From Dehalococcoidia bacterium (GTDB lineage Bacteria > Chloroflexota > Dehalococcoidia > Lucifugimonadales > Lucifugimonadaceae), in contig JAPKBN010000024.1 in the NCBI GenBank assembly GCA_026421215.1, forward strand, positions 1 through 33,130: a DNA stretch of 33,130 nucleotides, in the 5' to 3' direction. The notes beneath the pieces were generated by a model. It had not been told where the DNA came from, did not search any database, and worked only from the letters and a program-made list of their open reading frames with translations. The translations under genes and the position numbers were made by a program. This document shows positions 6,114 through 23,800 of this stretch, in pieces (within the stretch, counting starts at the first letter, position 1; every line of letters begins with the position of its first letter).

Positions 6114-8489
6114 TTAAGATCGTCGTCTTCGTTCCCGGTCAACAACTCCTAAAGCGGCTGCATAGATGCCATCGGTGTCGATGCCAAACAGCGAATATAA
6201 GTCATCCCGAGAACCTGATTGGCCGAACGTGTCGACTCCAAGGTTGATAGAGGGACTATCGAGTGCCGAGCCGATGAACGCCAACGTGTGAGGCGACCCG
6301 TCGATCACTGTCACCACCGGGCTGCCCACCTCGTGTGGTTCAAGTAAACCTGTCGGGTCATAAAGCCCGATATCGTGGCCTTTCACCTGTTCTTTTTCGG
6401 CAGTACGAACACGCCTGTGGAGCATGTCCGGGCTAGTCACCGAGAATACGTTGGCGGCGATCCCCTCACGCTCAAGCAACGGGATCGCCGCAAGGGTCTC
6501 CGGGATCATCACGCCGGTCGCAAATAGATTAACGATGGCGTCAGCTTCAGGATTTGCCGTGCGCAACCTGTAACAACCGTCGAGCACCGCCTTACGGAGT
6601 GCGTCGATGTCCGCCTCGTCGTGAGGATCATTGAACAAAGACTGATCGATCACCTTGGTACTTAGCCGTAGGAACACGGATTCGCCTTCGCCCGAGCCGA
6701 TTCCGCGTATGGACTCAAGTAAGATCCATTCAAGCTCACGAGCGAACGTCGGCTCGTAATACCGGATGTTCGGTAACTCCATTCCAATAGACGGAGAAAG
6801 CATCCCCTGGTGCGACCCGCCCTCCGGGCTGAGCGTCACACCGGATGGCGTCGCCACGGCGATGAACTTCGACTCTTGGTACACGCCGTACACGAGCGGA
6901 TCCAGCCCGCGGACGATAAACGGATCGTAGAGAGTACCGATCGGCACAAGTCGTCGCCCGGAAAGCTCCTTCGAAAGCCCGAGCTGCCCTAACAAAAGGA
7001 ACAGGCTCGTCTCGGAAAGGCCGAGCTCGATATGGCGACCATGAGGCCCTTCGGTCCACTTCAGGACCCGGCTCTCGGTATCGAAAAAGTCCGTCGCGTC
7101 GGTGTGATGCCACACTCCGGTGCGATTAATCCAGGAGCCCAGGCTGGTCGATGTTGCGACGTCTGGCGAGACCGTGACGATACGCTCAGATGCGTCAGGA
7201 GACGTTCGAGAAATCTCTAGAAGGATGCGTGCGAAGCTCTCCTGCGTAGATGCGGCGCTCGTCAATCCAAGATCGGTGTCATTAAACGCAAGTATCGGCT
7301 CTTCCGGCACAATCGGTCGGGTCAGTCGGTCGGCAGCATGAGATATGTAGTTCGACTCGGCGCTACCATCGGGGAAGCGGTCCCACGGGTAATCAGGTTC
7401 AACTCCGAAATGATCGGCCAACTCTTCAAACTGGTTTTGTGTCAGTAGCGCCGAGTGATTGGCGGGGTCGGCAGCGATCGGCAGTCCCCAACCCTTCACG
7501 GTGTACGCAAACACAACAGAAGGACCATCGGCATTTGATGCCTCTTCGTAGCAACGTGCGAGCGTGCCGACATCGTGCCCGCCGAGCCCGGCGATACGCC
7601 GCTGCAACTCCTTGTCGTCGAAATCGCTTACGCAGCGCTCGATATCGCTTCGCTGGCCGCGGGTCGTCTCAAGTAGTCGGGCGCGCACATCAGCCGCCGG
7701 AGCGACCAGCATCGCCTGGTACTCCTGGTTTGGCATATCGTCGATACGAGTCCTGAGCGCTTCACCGCCCGGGAGCTCCATAAGCTCCGTGAGCTGCTCC
7801 CCGTACTTGGCGACCACCACCTTCCAGCCGTTCACCCGGAACATGTCCATGAACCGTGCAACGCGGATTCCTGGCACCACGCGGTCAAGACTCTGTCGGT
7901 TTAGATCGACGATCCAGGTACAACGATCGAGACCCTGAATAGCGGGTTCCGTTACCGTCTCCCAGATAGAGCCCTCATCCAGTTCCGCATCACCCATATG
8001 TGCAAAGAAACGGCCTGATGTGGGTTCTAGGTTGTGGCCGTCAAGGTAATCCCTCACGAGCGCACCAAACGTGACCGAGCCTGGAGACAACCCAACGGAG
8101 CCTGACGAAAAATCGGGAGCGTCCGGGTCCTTGGTCCGACTCGGATAGGCCTGAAGCCCGCCGAACTCCCGGAGGGTCGGCAGGTACTTCACGTCCAGAT
8201 TGCCGAGCAGGTACTGGATTGCGTGATACACGGGAGACGCGTGTGGCTTGATTGCCACCCGGTCTTCTGCCTTCAACGTCTCGAAATAAAGAGCGCTCAA
8301 AATCGCCGCAGATGACGATGAGGAAGCCTGGTGGCCGCCAACCTTCGATCCGTCCGTGCTCTCACGGACGTTGTTGGCCCAGTGGATGATGGCGGTCGCC
8401 AGCCATAACACCCTGTCCCGGGAGTTATCCCTGATGAGCTGTACCTGGGATCTTCCCTGTGGGTTCACAGGCGGGTTCACGGCAACCAT
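6114..8489 (-). CDS. Homodimeric-type 2-oxoacid dehydrogenase E1 / transketolase-like TPP enzyme
   Basis: This 791-residue thiamine-diphosphate enzyme resembles the single-chain E1 of pyruvate dehydrogenase (AceE) and the 2-oxobutyrate dehydrogenase-like MdeB. Visible are GGHQASSSSSA (residues 51-61), KPHASPVYHA (81-90), the TPP/Mg site GDAELDEG (166-173) ending at N197 in DLNRQSLD, the FAYTVKGWGLP block, and a second-domain HIELGLSE glutamate segment expected to activate the cofactor. AceE proteins are usually near 890 residues, so this one is shorter. No E2 or E3 gene is in the window, so it may use a distant E2 or act alone as a decarboxylase or transketolase-like enzyme. The start at 8489 has GGAG 7 nt upstream; the ATG ten codons earlier has none. 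Confidence 0.82.
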   Translation of the reverse strand: MVAVNPPVNPQGRSQVQLIRDNSRDRVLWLATAIIHWANNVRESTDGSKVGGHQASSSSSAAILSALYFETLKAEDRVAIKPHASPVYHAIQYLLGNLDVKYLPTLREFGGLQAYPSRTKDPDAPDFSSGSVGLSPGSVTFGALVRDYLDGHNLEPTSGRFFAHMGDAELDEGSIWETVTEPAIQGLDRCTWIVDLNRQSLDRVVPGIRVARFMDMFRVNGWKVVVAKYGEQLTELMELPGGEALRTRIDDMPNQEYQAMLVAPAADVRARLLETTRGQRSDIERCVSDFDDKELQRRIAGLGGHDVGTLARCYEEASNADGPSVVFAYTVKGWGLPIAADPANHSALLTQNQFEELADHFGVEPDYPWDRFPDGSAESNYISHAADRLTRPIVPEEPILAFNDTDLGLTSAASTQESFARILLEISRTSPDASERIVTVSPDVATSTSLGSWINRTGVWHHTDATDFFDTESRVLKWTEGPHGRHIELGLSETSLFLLLGQLGLSKELSGRRLVPIGTLYDPFIVRGLDPLVYGVYQESKFIAVATPSGVTLSPEGGSHQGMLSPSIGMELPNIRYYEPTFARELEWILLESIRGIGSGEGESVFLRLSTKVIDQSLFNDPHDEADIDALRKAVLDGCYRLRTANPEADAIVNLFATGVMIPETLAAIPLLEREGIAANVFSVTSPDMLHRRVRTAEKEQVKGHDIGLYDPTGLLEPHEVGSPVVTVIDGSPHTLAFIGSALDSPSINLGVDTFGQSGSRDDLYSLFGIDTDGIYAAALGVVDRERRRRS

Positions 8490-8605
8490 CGATGCACTCC
8501 GATTAGCCCGAAAGAGCATCTGAACGTGATCGTACGTTCCGGGACACTGAAAAATGGGCGATTGCCCTGATCTTACACGTCATGACACGGTGTGACGCTC
8601 CCTTT

Positions 8606-8622
8606 TGTGATAATTCTTCACA
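8606..8622. promoter_or_regulatory. Inverted repeat TGTGA-N7-TCACA, candidate operator
   Basis: Arms TGTGA (8606-8610) and TCACA (8618-8622) flank an AT-rich 7-nt spacer in the divergent intergenic region between the E1 and enolase-superfamily genes. The arms equal the CRP/FNR-type half sites but the spacer is one base longer than the usual six. It may serve either gene. Confidence 0.3.
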
Positions 8623-8751
8623 CGTGACACTCCCGGCAGGACGTCCCGGCACGATAAACTCGCTGCAACATAGTGGAACCACATTCGGAACTAGCCTGAC
8701 CGGGCAAAGCCAGTAACACCTCCTAAGCTCCCACGGGATCCCAGAAACACC

Positions 8752-11165: not shown

Positions 11166-12662
11166 CTAGTCCTGCGGTGCGAATGTGGCTGAAACGTTCC
11201 GGCGCTGGATCTTGCCAGTCGCCGTCCTCGGGAGTGTGTCAGTGATGTAGATCCGCTCCGGGACCTTGAAGTCAGCCATACGCTCACGGCAGAACGACTG
11301 GATTGCAGCCTCATCGGCGTCGCCGGATAGGACCACTACCGCCTGCACGATCTCGCCGTACTTCACATCTGGAACAGCAAAACATACCGCCTCTGCTACA
11401 GCCGGGTGGTCGAGTAGCAGAGCATCTACCTCGAGCGGCGAAATCTTCTCACCGGCGCGGTTGATCAACTCCTTCAATCGACCGGTCAGGGTAAGTCGAC
11501 CGTCGGCATCCATGATTCCCTGATCACCGGTACGGAACCAGCCGTTGGTGAACGCCTCGGCGTTGGCCTCAGGGTTGTTGTTGTAACCATGGGTCACATT
11601 CTCGCCACGAATCACCACCTCGGCACGCTCTCCAAGGGGCATCATATTGCCGCCCTCGTCCATGATGCTGATCTCAACGCCGGTTCCCATGCCAACCGAA
11701 CCTGGTACCCGGTCCCCTGGGGGGAGCAGATTGGATGACATCTGGTGCGCTGCCTCGGTCATGCCGTACGCCTCAAGGACCGGAGCGCCAAAGCGAGCCT
11801 CAAGATCGGTGAATACCGATGGCACAAGCGCCGCGCTGCAAGATCGGATCAGTCGGAAACTCTCATGAGGTGCGTTGTCGTCTTCGGCACGCATCAACAG
11901 GATCTGGTGGATCGTAGGAACCGCCGAATACCAGGTCGCCCCGGTGGTCTTCTGGTCGGCCCAGAAGGTGCTTGCGGAGAAACGGGAGGGAACTACGATC
12001 GATCCGCCGGAATTCAGAGTAGACAGAGCCACGCCGATCAGGCCATGGACGTGGAAGAGCGGCATCACCACCATCGCCACGTCATCTGGCGTCAGAGCGT
12101 ACGTGTCCTTGATGTTGCCGAGCGATGTCAGCAAGTTCTTGTGCGTTAGCGGCACGCCCTTGGGCCGGTTGGTCGTGCCAGAGGTGTGAAGGAACAGCGC
12201 CACGTCGTCCTCGGATGGCCCTGCGACGTCCTTAGTCAAAGTGAGTTCGCTGCCATTGCGAGCGATAACGACATGGGCGCCGGTAGAGGAGGCGTCCATA
12301 GTCGGGATTTTCAGCTGGTTCGCAGAGTCACGTCCGGCGTGGTCGCCCGGGGGGACGATCGCCAGTTGCGCTTCGGCGTCCTCCATGAAGAACTTGAATT
12401 CGTCCACTGTGTATGCGGAGTTGAGTGGAGCGGCAATAGCACCCGCCCGGGCCACCGCCAGGAAGGTGATCATGAACTCAAGGTTGTTTGCTAGGACAAT
12501 GGACACCGGTCGCCCGGCCTCAACACCCGCAGCGGCCAGGACGCCTGCTACACGCTCGATCTCATTGGACAGGGCGGCGTAGCTGAGCGTCGGCCCTCCT
12601 GGGATGACGATGGCGTTGTCGGTCGCGGCGTTCGGGGTAAGAACCTGAGCGAGGGTGGTCAC
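11166..12662 (-). CDS. Acyl-CoA synthetase, oxalyl-CoA synthetase (AAE3/Pcs60)-like
   Basis: This 498-residue ANL-superfamily ligase activates a carboxylic acid with ATP and CoA. Core motifs are the P-loop TSGTTNRPKG (160-169), YGMTEA (299-304), GWFRTGD (374-380), the hinge GRLKELINRAGEKIS (394-408) and catalytic K484 in RTATGKIQ. LFLHTSGTTNRPKGVPLTH, MPLFHVHGL, FSASTFW, ATWYSAVPTIHQI, RSCSAALVP and NVTHGYNNNPEAN match the plant AAE3 / yeast Pcs60 group as I recall it, whose characterised members form oxalyl-CoA. A GTG start at 12662 is chosen: AGGA lies 10 nt upstream, the length then matches AAE3 (about 510), and overlap with the divergent sulfatase is avoided. The 63 residues available upstream look non-coding. 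No oxalyl-CoA decarboxylase is in the window. Confidence 0.83.
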   Translation of the reverse strand: MTTLAQVLTPNAATDNAIVIPGGPTLSYAALSNEIERVAGVLAAAGVEAGRPVSIVLANNLEFMITFLAVARAGAIAAPLNSAYTVDEFKFFMEDAEAQLAIVPPGDHAGRDSANQLKIPTMDASSTGAHVVIARNGSELTLTKDVAGPSEDDVALFLHTSGTTNRPKGVPLTHKNLLTSLGNIKDTYALTPDDVAMVVMPLFHVHGLIGVALSTLNSGGSIVVPSRFSASTFWADQKTTGATWYSAVPTIHQILLMRAEDDNAPHESFRLIRSCSAALVPSVFTDLEARFGAPVLEAYGMTEAAHQMSSNLLPPGDRVPGSVGMGTGVEISIMDEGGNMMPLGERAEVVIRGENVTHGYNNNPEANAEAFTNGWFRTGDQGIMDADGRLTLTGRLKELINRAGEKISPLEVDALLLDHPAVAEAVCFAVPDVKYGEIVQAVVVLSGDADEAAIQSFCRERMADFKVPERIYITDTLPRTATGKIQRRNVSATFAPQD

Positions 12663-12838: not shown

Positions 12839-14314
12839 ATGCTGCGAACACCTAGTCAACACGACCAACCCAATATTCTTGTCATCATCACGGACCAGCA
12901 ACGCGCAGATACGATGGCCTGTTATGGGAACGACTGGATTCAGACACCGAACATGAACGCGCTGGCGGCGAGTTCGTTTGTGTTTGAAAATGCATATGTC
13001 ACACAGCCGGTGTGCACGCCGTCCCGGTCGACGATGCTCACCGGCACCTATCCGCATACGAACGGTCTAGTCCGTAACAGCATTGCCCTGGCGCCGGACG
13101 CGTTGTCTATCGCCGAGATGGTGTCCCCGGAGTACAGACGCGTTCACTACGGGAAATGGCATCTCGGGAATGACGCCAACGCGCAGCACGGGTTTCAGGA
13201 TTGGATCAGCACGGGCCATGTCTCGCCCGGCCTGGACGGTACCGGCCAGTCCGACTACCACGCGTGGCTTGAGGGACAGGGTGTCGAGCTTCCGGAGCAC
13301 TACGTTCGTCCCGGCGGAGACGGCGCAGGTTCGAAGCGGGCCGTGGCGCAGGCGAACCTTCCGGAAGAACTGACGCAGGCGAGCTTCGTCGGTGATATCA
13401 CAACGAAGTTCCTACGTGACGAATCTGATAAACCGTTCCTGCTATTTACGAACTTCTTCGAGCCACACCCACCATACAGTGGCCCACTCGGCGATTTGTA
13501 CGACCCGGCAACTCTGCCAGTTGGACCTGACTTCATGCGTTCACCGGAAGGTCACTCGCTGTTCAATCGCTCCCGCTCAGAGTTCTACCTGGCGGGCGAG
13601 CATCGTGAGGACTCAGTCGCCGGGTGTGACCACCACGATCTCCACGGCGAGGACGGATGGCGAGCGCTGCGCGCCAACTACATGGCCAACATCACGCTGG
13701 TGGACCGTCAGGTCGGCCGGATAATGGAGGCGCTTGAGGAGTCAGGCCACGCCGATGACACGATCGTGGTCTTCACAAGCGACCACGGCGACATGCTTGG
13801 CGACCACGGCCTGTTGGAGAAGCGGGCGTTTTATGACGGATCCGCTCGAGTGCCGCTGCTCGTGCGCGTGCCGTGGCTGTCAGAAGGCCAGACCCGTATA
13901 CCGGGGAGTATCGGACAAATCGATCTCGTACCAACGTTGCTGGACCTCGTAGGGGAGTCGATCCCAGATCACCTGCAGGGGAATAGTAAGGCGTCGGTCC
14001 TCCGGGGTGAAACGACCCTCGAAAACAACGACGTGTTCGTGCAGTGGAACGGAAAGGGAGACCGCGATCTCGGGACTCCAACCATCAACGAAATGATCGC
14101 CCTACCGCGCCGGACTGTAGTCTCAGGTGACCGCTGGAAATTGAACCTGTGTGATGGTGACGACGGAGAACTGTTCGACCTCACCGCAGATCCGCATGAG
14201 CTGAGAAATCTATTTTCGGATCTCGGTCAAAGTGAGCGGATAGGCTCAATGGCGGCGCGCCTACGCGCGTGGCAGGAAGAGACAGGCGACACAGCGCCGT
14301 TGCCGGTGGTGTAG
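12839..14314 (+). CDS. Sulfatase, formylglycine (Cys) type
   Basis: This 491-residue S1-type sulfatase hydrolyses sulfate esters. The maturation signature CTPSRSTMLTG begins at C59, the residue converted to formylglycine. Metal-site aspartates are in TDQQRADT (D19) and FTSDHGDMLGDHG (D315/H316), and HYGKWHLG gives the usual active-site Lys/His pair. No signal peptide is visible, so the enzyme appears cytoplasmic and would act on imported sulfated compounds, unlike most secreted polysaccharide sulfatases. A Cys-type site can be matured by the aerobic formylglycine-generating enzyme or by an anaerobic maturase; neither is in the window. ATG at 12839 is preferred to the in-frame TTG six bases earlier. 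It is divergent from the acyl-CoA synthetase. Confidence 0.92.
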   Translation: MLRTPSQHDQPNILVIITDQQRADTMACYGNDWIQTPNMNALAASSFVFENAYVTQPVCTPSRSTMLTGTYPHTNGLVRNSIALAPDALSIAEMVSPEYRRVHYGKWHLGNDANAQHGFQDWISTGHVSPGLDGTGQSDYHAWLEGQGVELPEHYVRPGGDGAGSKRAVAQANLPEELTQASFVGDITTKFLRDESDKPFLLFTNFFEPHPPYSGPLGDLYDPATLPVGPDFMRSPEGHSLFNRSRSEFYLAGEHREDSVAGCDHHDLHGEDGWRALRANYMANITLVDRQVGRIMEALEESGHADDTIVVFTSDHGDMLGDHGLLEKRAFYDGSARVPLLVRVPWLSEGQTRIPGSIGQIDLVPTLLDLVGESIPDHLQGNSKASVLRGETTLENNDVFVQWNGKGDRDLGTPTINEMIALPRRTVVSGDRWKLNLCDGDDGELFDLTADPHELRNLFSDLGQSERIGSMAARLRAWQEETGDTAPLPVV

Positions 14315-14592
14315 AGGTTTGCGTGCTTCTCACCCGGTGGAAGATGGCTGGGGTAAGGGAGGCAAAGTTCTCCACGATCGATAGTGTGTCCTTTGTCCAA
14401 ACTCTTGGTGAAGGTGCTGATCGCCATCTTCGGGCCGTCCGGCCAGCTGGGGAACGGCGTCGAACCAGACGACACGTGGAAGCAGTGATCGAGAGACCCG
14501 ATCTCCGGCATCACCGGCAACTTCAGATCAGTCGGGCCTTCAGGCGCGAACTTGCGGCCCGTTGAGACCATATTGTCGTCCAGCTCCCACAC
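14227..14592 (-). pseudogene. Possible gene remnant in the sulfatase-VOC gap
   Basis: The 319-nt gap after the sulfatase holds a minus-strand reading frame, opening GTG at 14592, whose first 90 or so codons show the GC-rich third positions of the neighbouring genes and read as plausible protein (FAPEGPTDLKLPVMPEIGSL, then a Ser/Pro-rich stretch, then LPYPSHLPPGEKHANLYTTG). After about 14315 the frame runs antisense into the sulfatase and loses coding character, and no good Shine-Dalgarno precedes it. I do not recognise the family. It is most simply read as the broken remains of a gene, though a short intact gene is possible. Confidence 0.3.
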
Positions 14593-14633
14593 AATCTAGT
14601 GCCCGTCAGCTGCCCTTCGAGTGCCTAGTCGTT

Positions 14634-20285: not shown

Positions 20286-20404
20286 TCGTGGAAGGTGATG
20301 GCGGCAACTGGGTTAATTTCGGGCACACAAGCGATAGTACTTGAGAAATCGGAACATATCCGGCCATTCGGGAATGTAAGCTGCGCCTTTTCATCTCCGG
20401 GCCT

Positions 20405-21889
20405 TTACGCCTCCGAAGACTCACGCCTCGATCTAGCTAATAGGGCCAGCAACAGCCCCATCGCAGAGAATACGGTCACGAGAATGTAGGCCGCTCGCCA
20501 GCCATCTACAAACGCATCTCCCGCACCCGCGGTATCGGATATCTCATCAAGTGCGATGTCAAATCCCTGGGAAACCATCACTCCTACCACTACCGCTGAG
20601 GCCACCGCCTGTCCGACCACGTTTCCGACATTTCGCGACAGGTTTTGTAGTGCACCGACAACTCCAAACCTCGAAGGTGGAACCGATCCCATGATCATGC
20701 TGCTGTTTGGCACACTCCAGAGACCCATCGCCAGGCCGTTAATGAATACGATCAGCATCACCACCCAAATCGGTGTGGCTCCATCCACAAAAGCGAAAGC
20801 GAAAGCGGTGGCGGCCAAAATCACGAACCCGAAAATCATAAACGGCCGCTCGCCAAACCTGTCGGCCAAGCGGCCACTGCTCTGTGCAGCGACGCCCATT
20901 CCTAATGCGCTAAGGAACAGCACTAACCCCGCGACGCCCTCAGTCAATCCACGGAAACTGATTAGGAAAATCGGTAACAAGAATCGAGTCGCCGTCGTCC
21001 CCAAAAATCCCAGGAAACGCATGGAAATGCCGATGCTGAACACGCGGTTCTGAAACATCCTGAGCTCGAGCATCGGCGACTTTATGCGAAGCTCCCAGGC
21101 TACAAAACAGCCCATGAGGGCTACAAAACCCAGTATTCCAACGATGATGAAGGGGGATGCCCAGCTCACACCAAATGGATTGTTGATCGTTATCACCAGT
21201 ACGATGACGGCAAACGCAGACAGGAATGCCCCGATCCAGTCAAACGACGGTCGATCTCTGCTGCGGCCTCGACTCACCAGTTCTTCATCGAGGAAGAAAT
21301 ATCCGGCGATGAAGGCCAACGAGATCGGGACGAAGATCATCAGGAACAGCGTCTCCCACGGCAACCACTGAAGGACAATCCCTGCGATTATTGGGCCCGA
21401 AGCGCCGCCTACCGCGACCGCCGTGGTCTGACTACCAATCGCTTTCCCGCGCTCTTTGTCTGGGAACACCGATATGATCATCGCCGTGCCCACGGCCTGG
21501 AGCATGGAGTTGCCGGTCGCCATGATTACCCGCGCCAGGATCAACAGGCCAAACGTCGGCGCGAACGCGGTGAAGAGAGAACCGGCGGCGAATATCACAA
21601 GGCCAATCAGATGGACCTTTTTTCGTCCGATGATGTCGGCAAATCTGCCCATGGGCATCATCAGGGCGCTGATGGTCAATGCCTGGGCGACCACGACCCA
21701 GGTGACGGATCGGAGAGTGACACCGTAATCCTCTGCAATGGCCGAGAGGGCCAGAAACACCATCGACATGCTCATCACAGAAGTGGTGAGCGGGATTGCG
21801 ATTACCGCAAACGCCTTCCATTTGTAGGGGTCCCCGGATTGGCTCCCGCCACTTAAAGCAACGGCGTCGTCCATCCCGGACGGGCTCAT
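20405..21889 (-). CDS. MFS transporter, 14-TM DHA2-type (tandem copy 2)
   Basis: This 494-residue paralogue of the preceding transporter shares the same motif A (GRFADIIGRKK at 81-91), FLLPIFLISFRGLTEG and MGSVPPSRFGVVGAL blocks. The two copies differ mainly at the N-terminus, the loop after SRGRS and the C-terminal tail. The register and strong conservation indicate a tandem duplication kept by selection, possibly for two substrates or for dosage. It is the promoter-proximal copy on the minus strand. Upstream of it lies a decayed coding region, not a regulator gene. Confidence 0.92.
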   Translation of the reverse strand: MSPSGMDDAVALSGGSQSGDPYKWKAFAVIAIPLTTSVMSMSMVFLALSAIAEDYGVTLRSVTWVVVAQALTISALMMPMGRFADIIGRKKVHLIGLVIFAAGSLFTAFAPTFGLLILARVIMATGNSMLQAVGTAMIISVFPDKERGKAIGSQTTAVAVGGASGPIIAGIVLQWLPWETLFLMIFVPISLAFIAGYFFLDEELVSRGRSRDRPSFDWIGAFLSAFAVIVLVITINNPFGVSWASPFIIVGILGFVALMGCFVAWELRIKSPMLELRMFQNRVFSIGISMRFLGFLGTTATRFLLPIFLISFRGLTEGVAGLVLFLSALGMGVAAQSSGRLADRFGERPFMIFGFVILAATAFAFAFVDGATPIWVVMLIVFINGLAMGLWSVPNSSMIMGSVPPSRFGVVGALQNLSRNVGNVVGQAVASAVVVGVMVSQGFDIALDEISDTAGAGDAFVDGWRAAYILVTVFSAMGLLLALLARSRRESSEA

Positions 21890-22444
21890 AGGGAGCGGTC
21901 GATAGCGATAGCGGAGTTAATAGCGGGCACGTCAGGATGTTACTTCATAAGTCGACCAGGACCGAATCTGATAAATCACTACAGGACGGAGTCAACGGGA
22001 GAAGCTGGAGTATTCTCGACGTTCAGTCTGGTTGCGCTGAAGGTGACAATGGAAGAGCAATCGGCACCTGAAGTTACGACCATAGTCCCTGGCCCAGACC
22101 TCGGGCCAGAACCGGTAATTACCTGGGATGACCAGTGGCCTTTTTTGCTGCCGCCGTCGCCGCTAACTCCAGCACCCAAAACGATGCGACAGGCCACGCT
22201 GGCCCTGACCTAGGTTCGGTAGTCGGATCGGACGTCCTCGCCGATTACCGGCCCGAAGGGTGCTCCCTTATCGCTGCCAATTGCGTCTGACTTGTGGATG
22301 TGGGCGATGATTTATCCGGATTCTCGTGGTGGTGGGTTTTACTTGGCGTGTTAGGACTCGCCGTACTACCGCGAATAGGCGTCGACCTGTTGAGTAATCG
22401 TCCTTGATCCGGACCTGAAAGGCTGAGAGACGTCGATTAAGCCG
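21890..22444. other. 555-nt region without an intact gene
   Basis: No intact gene is supported here. The plus strand carries broken coding sequence (21986-22407, separate entry). A 72-codon minus-strand frame at 21979-22197 overlaps it but has no Shine-Dalgarno and no recognisable family, so I treat it as a shadow. The promoter of the tandem MFS genes should lie at the left end of this region. Confidence 0.5.
21986..22407 (+). pseudogene. Remnant of the C-terminus of a secreted/surface protein
   Basis: The plus strand reads GEAGVFSTFSLVALKV and a Pro/Glu-rich linker ending in ITWDDQWP. It then meets a run of six T (22141-22146). Changing frame there gives FFAAAVAANSS and further sequence to a TGA at 22288, and the same frame continues past that stop to a hydrophobic segment, WWWVLLGVLGLAVLPRIG, with a final stop at 22405. 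A 'FSTFSLV' strand, a linker and a single C-terminal membrane helix is how many large surface proteins end. One frameshift, one in-frame stop and no N-terminal part suggest a decayed gene. An internal ATG at 22049 with GAAGGTG upstream could still make a 54-residue peptide. Confidence 0.35.
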
Positions 22445-23800
22445 TCAGCCGAGGTTTCTCAACCTGCTGAACTTGACGGTGAAAATCGTCGCCAAAGTCA
22501 GTAGCACCGCTGCCAGCCCGATGATCGCCGATTCAGCGCCGAATACCTCCATGGCCGTCGCCACCGATAAGATGCCAAATGGCATGAAGCCGAAGATCAT
22601 CTCGAAAATGCTGGCCACCCGCGCACGGTGCTCGTCGTCCGACAGTTCCATTGCCAGCGCCTGGCCCAGCGCAAACCGCCCAGCCTCGCCCACGCCGACA
22701 AACAGCATCAGAAACAACCCGATCCAGTAGTACGGTAATCCGGCAACGGACGCCATCGCTATCGCCGAGACGAAGGCGGAACCCATCAGGACGGCGCCCC
22801 GGCGCTGACCGCGTCTAAGCGAGGCCATGCCGAGCGCCCCCATGAGAGATCCGATCCCGGTCATGGCCGTCAATGCCCCGACCTGGAACGGGGTTGCGTC
22901 GTACACGTCCTTTGCGAACGCCGGGAGCAGCATGCGGAACGGCATTGTCAAAACCATTACAACCCCGGCAAACACAAGAACAGACAAGAGCTCTTTGTAC
23001 TGGCGGACGTACTTGAAGCCTTCGACCACGTTCGATGCCACCGATCGTCGTGGAGCGTTGGGATCCGGGTCGAAGCGAGGTAGCTGGGTCATGAACATGA
23101 TAGCGACGACATTAAGACTGGCCACAACTAGGTACACGCCTTCCGGCCCGACAAACCCGTAGAGCACTCCGCCTATGGCCGGAGCCACCATCGTCGTCAG
23201 GCTCATCGCCGCCGAGTTGAGCGAGACGGCGTTCGACATCAACTCTTTGCCGACAGTCTTCTGGATCATCAACTGACGGGCCGGCATCATGAACGCAAAA
23301 TAAAGACCTTGGATCATGGAAGCGATAAGCAGGTACTGCCACGTCAAAACGCCCACGATGATCATGGTTGCCACACCAAGTGCGATGATCACCTGCCCGG
23401 CCTGCAGGATCTGGATCAGCGTGCGTTTTTCCATTCGCTCTGCAACAGTGCCGCCGATAAACGATCCAAATAATGAAGCGGGCGCAAAACCGACAGCGAT
23501 CAACCCGGTGATCGTGAAGGAGTTCGTGATGTCGTATGCCAGGATGCCGCGAGCGAGGAACTGCATTTGGGTTCCACTCATGCCGGTCATCACACCTAGC
23601 CACAGAAAACGGTAATGCCGATTGCCGAGGGACTCAAAAGTCCGGCCAAAGAATCCGCTTGTACGTGCTGACCGAGTTGCCAATCGGGGTGCGGACAGCG
23701 CTGCGCCAGAGTCGGAAGTAGCGACCGAATCCGCTTCGGGATCTGTGACGCGTTCTGACGGCGACGTATCGCCTGGGCGCAACGGCCCGCTAGTTACCAT
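22445..23800 (-). CDS. MFS transporter, 12-TM EntS-like
   Basis: This 451-residue protein has a roughly 55-residue hydrophilic Ser/Thr/Ala-rich N-terminal tail followed by 12 hydrophobic helices. The core starts at NRHYRFLWLGVMTGMSG and has the EntS/MFS_3-type features: GGTVAERMEKRTLIQ in the motif A position, PARQLMIQKTVGKELMSNAVSLNSA, and VVEGFKYVRQYKELL between the halves. EntS-type proteins export siderophores or other small molecules; the substrate here is unknown. AGGA lies very close (3 nt) before the ATG. It is divergent from another MFS_3-type gene, and a 20-bp palindrome lies between them. Confidence 0.9.
   Translation of the reverse strand: MVTSGPLRPGDTSPSERVTDPEADSVATSDSGAALSAPRLATRSARTSGFFGRTFESLGNRHYRFLWLGVMTGMSGTQMQFLARGILAYDITNSFTITGLIAVGFAPASLFGSFIGGTVAERMEKRTLIQILQAGQVIIALGVATMIIVGVLTWQYLLIASMIQGLYFAFMMPARQLMIQKTVGKELMSNAVSLNSAAMSLTTMVAPAIGGVLYGFVGPEGVYLVVASLNVVAIMFMTQLPRFDPDPNAPRRSVASNVVEGFKYVRQYKELLSVLVFAGVVMVLTMPFRMLLPAFAKDVYDATPFQVGALTAMTGIGSLMGALGMASLRRGQRRGAVLMGSAFVSAIAMASVAGLPYYWIGLFLMLFVGVGEAGRFALGQALAMELSDDEHRARVASIFEMIFGFMPFGILSVATAMEVFGAESAIIGLAAVLLTLATIFTVKFSRLRNLG

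Follow-up and report, generated by a model that had tools for sequence, protein, structure and literature searches.

A decayed tail of a surface-protein gene between two transporter genes in a Dehalococcoidia genome

Positions 21974-22407 on the plus strand of a 33,130-nucleotide stretch from a Dehalococcoidia bacterium (assembly GCA_026421215.1, contig JAPKBN010000024.1; this whole stretch is referred to as the window) are what remains of the 3' end of a large surface-protein gene. The relic resembles the C-terminal end of large surface proteins from related Chloroflexota, and the matched parts comprise the last beta-strand of a domain, a Pro-rich linker and a single membrane helix. Our preferred reading, which we hold to be likely, is that it represents the decayed tail of a surface protein that was anchored in the membrane, probably had an S8 front and was lost by separate deletions. 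The comparisons covered 59 genomes of relatives as well as a genus set of eight genomes, consisting of the own genome (G000, 127 contigs, with the window as contig C119) and seven others of the same genus (G001-G007).

The relic and its homologues

The ORF list shows 555 bases between the transporter genes MFS2 and MFS3, with no whole ORF of at least 80 aa inside. The region is laid out as follows:

20405-21889, minus strand: MFS2, a diverged second DHA2-type MFS copy, its start bordering the relic (ORF list)
21890-21973, minus strand: upstream leader of MFS2, part of the transporter and not of the relic (alignment with transporter leaders)
21974-22042, plus strand: relic, extreme end of the lost C-terminal domain, up to and including the FSTFSLVALK strand
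22043-22287, plus strand: relic, Pro-rich linker, frame unbroken through the T6 run (tblastn, profile match, translation)
22141-22146, plus strand: T6 run, frame unchanged; same length in G007 (TTCTTT)
22288-22290, plus strand: real frame break (alignments of three species)
22291-22407, plus strand: relic, membrane helix and short basic end, with stop codon
22445-23800, minus strand: MFS3 transporter, convergent neighbour of the relic (ORF list; orthologues beside MFS1 in G002, G004 and G001)

Translation confirmed the open plus-strand frame (21857-22213) that an earlier note, made from the letters alone, had singled out for its FSTFSLVALK strand (22013-22042) and Pro-rich stretch. The portion of this frame up to 21889 is antisense to the start of MFS2, and the portion from 21890 to about 21973 is MFS2 leader and not surface protein. 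A relic extending up to the MFS2 start was dropped; 21890-21973 aligns with transporter leaders. At positions 21974-22042, G007 reads HYTAEFTGDAGGFSTFGLVALKV and G001 reads HCTAMFTGDAGGFSTFGLVALAL. Searches of the relic pieces against Pfam and NCBIfam returned a single Pfam match at E 0.14 and otherwise none, the plasmid collection searched gave no match, and no title on this relic or its protein family appeared among the papers listed.

Similarity to intact proteins was significant by several routes. In its own genome, a profile (A2) built from four relatives and reported at a threshold of E 0.001 matched only the relic (E 4.3e-9; the match spans 21986-22264 and contains two TAG codons), with no paralogue at E 0.001; against G007 the same profile reached E 5.8e-21, with one TAG and one TAA. 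The DNA of 21890-22480 occurs once in its own genome, other matches there scoring at most 30 bits, and among the 59 relatives it matched G007 at 86% over its whole length and G006 in two pieces at 82 and 92%, the remaining relatives giving short matches only (E 0.0097 or weaker). Besides G007, a 47-residue piece of the relic found an 892-aa frame in G001 (E 3.4e-5) and a 530-aa frame in G029 (E 0.005), all further matches being weaker (E at least 0.08).

The G001 protein matched the G007 locus by tblastn at 48% over 147 residues (E 1.5e-35), in one frame with two stops; the match starts at HYTAEFTGDAGGFSTF, takes in the Pro-rich linker and the helix and extends to the basic end. With the window as target, the first part of the G001 protein's tail matched at E 2e-11 with two stops contained and its helix matched in another frame at E 6e-6 (42% identity over 33 residues), all E values of these searches being computed for seven short stretches and without composition correction. 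Aligned with 21970-22410, the G001 tail reached 48.9 bits, the highest score among 500 dinucleotide shuffles being 26.2; for the G029 tail, in frame, the corresponding values were 40.0 and 26.6 bits. A 52% match to the helix on the own contig C79 (E 0.32) lies in the frame of a large multi-spanning protein and was judged to be chance. The tblastn and profile matches uphold the earlier suggestion that a large membrane-anchored surface protein has lost its body and left only its tail; the search against surface proteins of relatives found a match, so that an absence of similarity is excluded.

The lost protein and the MFS1-MFS3 junction

The surface-protein tail is well founded on these sequence comparisons, and it is probable, from G001 and G005, that this protein also had an S8 front. 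In G001 the surface gene (contig C20, L056 7905-12407; C20 is a 100% match to JAQBUX010000059) lies away from the MFS junction, adjoining an aldose epimerase gene, and carries in this order Peptidase_S8, PKD_4, fn3, the C-terminal domain, the Pro linker and the membrane helix. Its S8 frame (PF00082, E 1e-13, plus PKD_4) is followed in phase by a frame with PKD_4, fn3 and the C-terminal domain, the two being separated by one TAG (L056 10584-10586) that may represent early decay, an assembly error or readthrough. As an observation in its own right, the window holds a second relic, about 64 residues of an aldose 1-epimerase (about 14413-14604, minus strand, overlapping ORF 14227-14592), with a stop within the matched stretch; its identity to the corresponding G001 and G005 genes, 298-313 aa long, is 59-62% (PF01263 in G001).

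Only G001 has S8 first and the C-terminal domain with the helix last. Among 12 S8 places, seven share one ORF with the C-terminal domain, and in all seven (L131, L132, L134, L135, L136, L138 and L139) the domain precedes S8, opposite to G001, the two modules having been shuffled among relatives. The S8 front is less sure because these seven carry the opposite order, and there is a modest chance that the tail came from a surface protein without an S8 front, either alone or followed by S8 (domain, helix, then S8); in the latter case G005 would have kept the S8 piece of the pair and lost the other. Tail-bearing frames without a Pfam S8 match in G029 (on C138), in G075 (on C61) and at L124 favor this alternative as well. 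It is opposed by the same-genus G001, where a single frame, interrupted by the TAG, leads from S8 to the tail at its end, and by G005, where no match to the C-terminal domain, and hence no trace of it before the S8 front, was found. The S8 gene of G029 stops at a contig end in an apparent PKD repeat and the frame with its tail starts, ahead of an fn3 domain, at a different contig end, pieces that would fit the G001 order. In G020, whose S8 gene, like that of G029, is among those nearest to the G005 piece, this gene continues through further domains and has an unread stretch, and the C-terminal domain had no match in that genome at E 0.001. At L124, a reverse transcriptase gene (7393-8733, minus strand; PF00078, E 7e-14) neighbours a 1137-aa surface protein that likewise carries the C-terminal domain.

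The preferred reading, with an S8-fronted protein, gains from the junction itself. Comparison of synteny, which the earlier note had proposed, found one shared state in G000, G006 and G007, which have the same junction of MFS2 leader with relic, and other states in G001, G002, G004 and G005. In G002, G004 and G001 MFS1 directly adjoins MFS3 with about 75-110 bases between the frames and no trace of a surface gene. The eight genus genomes thus comprise three with a clean gap, one with a front (G005) and three with a tail, while for G003 no close MFS3 was among the matches listed; an intact surface gene at the MFS1-MFS3 junction was not found in any of the eight. The relic in the window contains no S8 part, and an S8-like front remains at the junction only in G005.

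This G005 front (L089, contig C61 of G005) is a plus-strand frame from an ATG at 11976 to about 12701 with a hydrophobic N-terminal segment (by eye), and over its last 127 residues it shares 63% identity with the G001 S8 frame. It sits between MFS1 and MFS3 and ends where MFS3 loses its last residues. The G005 MFS3 itself (L089 12360-13787) lacks about 80 residues at its end, at the junction with the S8 piece. The piece alone had no Pfam match at E 0.01 and, as a query, found nothing in the G000 genome at 1e-10. A misjoin in the G005 assembly is possible.

It is unlikely, in our estimate, that the tail never belonged to a full gene at this place and that a fragment was brought in by recombination, for example with MFS2. 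The trace-free MFS1-MFS3 junctions of G001, G002 and G004 would agree with such an event, as would the direct adjacency of relic and MFS2 leader, MFS2 being a copy that did not turn up next to MFS1 in G002, G004 or G005. Against it, a portion of an S8 surface gene survives in G005 at this very junction and in the same orientation, with a deletion reaching into MFS3, which is simplest if whole genes stood there.

The transporter copies bear on the age of the duplication. MFS2, whose best NCBIfam match (TIGR00711) is below its cut-off, is 72.9% identical to MFS1 of the window and 70-74% identical to MFS1 of G000, G002, G004 and G005, whereas these MFS1 proteins are 77-83% identical among themselves (the G002 row beginning some residues upstream of the first ATG). 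Since the former identities are below the latter, the MFS duplication appears to predate the divergence of these species. A G001 MFS fragment is about equally close to MFS2 (75.5%) and MFS1 (74.1%), so that G001 may hold both copies. The earlier note had also proposed an old deletion at the MFS genes, which is supported; its link to the duplication is unproven, with the contact between relic and MFS2 leader as its sole support, and G005 lost most of its surface gene with no MFS2 at the locus.

The MFS2 leader aligns with the leader of MFS1 in G002 (80% over 40 bases, E 0.003) as well as with those of MFS1 in G004 and in the window. Similar leaders (GTTAATAGCGGGCAC...GATACTACTTC-like) occupy 20286-20404 and 21890-21973, upstream of MFS1 and MFS2, and also precede MFS1 in G002 and G004; they are possibly a shared putative promoter or operator. 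A genus tree from DH, TKN, TKC and MFS3 separated G000, G006 and G007 from the others with a support of 100, all other splits having 66-75, and the single-gene identities of these four genes conflict. Because of this conflict and the weak support, gain and loss were left unordered.

Lesions and drift of the relic

The frame of the relic runs from 21974 to about 22287, is broken by TAG codons at 22211-22213 and 22220-22222, and switches near 22288 to the helix frame (22291-22407) with its Trp-rich hydrophobic segment. The second TAG is common to G007, while the frame break is common to G006 and absent in G007. Both the TGA and the Trp-rich helix behind it that the earlier note had described are present, the TGA (22288-22290) being no separate lesion because it follows from the frame break. 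In G006, 218 columns (bp) are missing from the middle of the relic, about half of it, and a stop, identified by eye, stands where the helix begins.

Divergence of the relic was level with or somewhat above the neutral yardstick. Between G000 and G007, 68 of 431 sites differ (0.158), as compared with 0.095-0.158 at fourfold sites of five neighbouring gene stretches; the relic values for G000-G006 (38/216, 0.176) and G007-G006 (51/213, 0.239) stand beside MFS3 fourfold values of 0.137 and 0.208. Substitutions between G000 and G007 are spread evenly over the codon positions of the relic (15, 18 and 18 of 100, 100 and 99 sites) and of the helix (6, 5 and 5 of 38 each), unlike those of MFS3 (14, 10 and 51), and the relic therefore drifts with no sign of selective constraint. 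As its divergence among G000, G006 and G007 is at or above neutral, the decay seems to precede the split of these species. Judged by its sequence, the relic is a neutrally decaying gene remnant, predicted to be non-functional, and ordinary gene loss in kind.

Retention of the relic as a regulatory spacer, a promoter or terminator for MFS2 or MFS3, is very unlikely. The leader at 21890-21973 does differ between G000 and G007 at only 8 of 84 sites, but this low divergence is confined to the leader and the relic behaves like fourfold sites or diverges somewhat more; half of the relic is missing in G006, and the window had no match in Rfam or tRNA searches. We give even less credence to a separate small gene in the minus-strand ORF 21979-22209. 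This ORF is open in G000 (76 aa) and G007 (72 aa), but neither Pfam nor NCBIfam gave a match at E 10, the ORF is removed in G006 and shows no spared codon position, and a long open frame likewise lies on the strand opposite the G001 gene (L056 7951-8622); the conserved minus-strand gene that the earlier note had named as a contrary outcome thus did not hold. The same note had placed a one-base shift at the T6 run between the open stretches, with programmed slippage or a sequencing error as a possible cause, and a living gene that slips there, or an intact gene misread, can practically be dismissed, since G007 reads TTCTTT at equal length with no indel, the homologous frame passes straight through and is not the shifted one, further stops and indels occur across three species and the substitutions are even over codon positions.

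Under the preferred reading of an S8-fronted surface protein lost by separate deletions, the protein would have been a membrane-anchored S8 subtilase with PKD/Fn3 spacers, similar to that of G001, and its gene would have occupied the space between MFS1/2 and MFS3, oriented toward the latter. The deletion that fused the MFS2 leader to codons near the end of the gene would have happened in a common ancestor of G000, G006 and G007, and the stub, presumably without present function, would afterwards have acquired stops and a one-base loss as well as, in G006, the further 218-bp loss. A separate deletion in G005 would have spared the front of the gene but taken out everything behind it along with the end of MFS3. 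One junction accordingly presents a tail in one lineage, an S8-like front in another and further loss in a third relative, and this makes the loss of secreted surface proteins in these Chloroflexota datable and testable. The comparison also corrects a false slippage call at T6. While the kind of event is ordinary, its history is well resolved.

The lost C-terminal domain and comparison with known systems

The C-terminal domain of about 285 residues, of which the window keeps the last strand only, was studied in eight members from relatives (L120-L127), none of which had a Pfam match at E 0.1. The domain ends in GGFSxF (AGLSMF in L127), and an invariant Ser begins the last strand. With respect to the motif H-X-S/T, all eight rows show G-F/L-S: the Ser is present, position -2 is Gly and the His is absent. 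AlphaFold2 models reached a pLDDT of 81.3 and a pTM of 0.77 for the whole domain and 85.7 and 0.84 for its second half, and Foldseek found nothing under 0.001 with either. For the second-half model, the VIA comparison ranked CD97 first (Z 7.5, rmsd 4.2, 147 aligned), followed by a second CD97 entry, BAI3 (6.5), BAI2 and the ankyrin ZU5 (5.8); GAIN, ZU5 or FIIND proteins make up nine of the 11 best rows, with Z 5.4-7.5, all rows being below the Z of 8 under which, as VIA warns, a score may reflect just a common arrangement. We take the aligned ranges to be GAIN in CD97 and FIIND in CARD8.

In the BAI2 row the aligned range ends with 197 paired to 921, and an ungapped back-count puts Ser 188 (of GGFS) on S912, a placement obtained by counting nine residues back from the last aligned pair without a residue-level alignment. 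The same count in the CARD8 row misses what we assume to be the CARD8 cleavage site, which counts against an exact match. According to PMC13062082, S912 is the residue after the BAI2 cleavage site and His is the base of the canonical GAIN cleavage motif H-X-S/T. A search of PDB sequences with the domain profile gave one match (E 0.25), and PF00791 matched two places over eight genomes, neither of them a locus of the C-terminal domain. A G035 protein has a Pfam ZU5 match at residues of about 83-152 and SHFSTI at 204, some 50 residues later. Large bacterial surface proteins with ZU5-superfamily domains, for which self-cleavage was suggested, are described by Zhang et al. 2012 (PMC3482391); this paper, like PMC8195603, bears on GAIN or ZU5 in bacteria.

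These models allow the tentative and rather doubtful suggestion that the FSTF strand may be all that is left of a bacterial juxtamembrane domain of GAIN/ZU5-like type, lost in this lineage with the whole device by deletion. If so, the architecture of adhesion receptors (large ectodomain, GAIN-like domain, stalk and membrane helix) would recur in Chloroflexota surface proteins, proteases among them, with the invariant Ser at the predicted place of the self-cleavage site, and the likeness, if confirmed, would be relevant to the bacterial ancestry of receptor domains that cleave themselves. What the domain has in common with ZU5 bacterial surface proteins and GAIN adhesion GPCRs is that its second half aligns best, that the Ser begins the last strand and that a membrane anchor follows; it differs in its Z values below 8, in the lack of a Pfam match in all eight members and in Gly replacing His at -2.

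Compared with the G001 surface gene, the last strand (FTGDAGGFSTF), the Pro linker, the helix and the basic end align, best by way of G007. The relic differs in consisting only of about 145 end codons with two stops and one frame break, and the G001 gene in its other genomic place, its front running off the contig and its one in-frame TAG. Bacterial pseudogene remnants occur in intergenic space, and the relic shares with them homology to intact genes, several lesions, neutral divergence and a deletion ongoing in one relative, here G006. Nothing about it is different in kind, and it is the retention of different pieces at one junction in two lineages that makes this case unusually informative.
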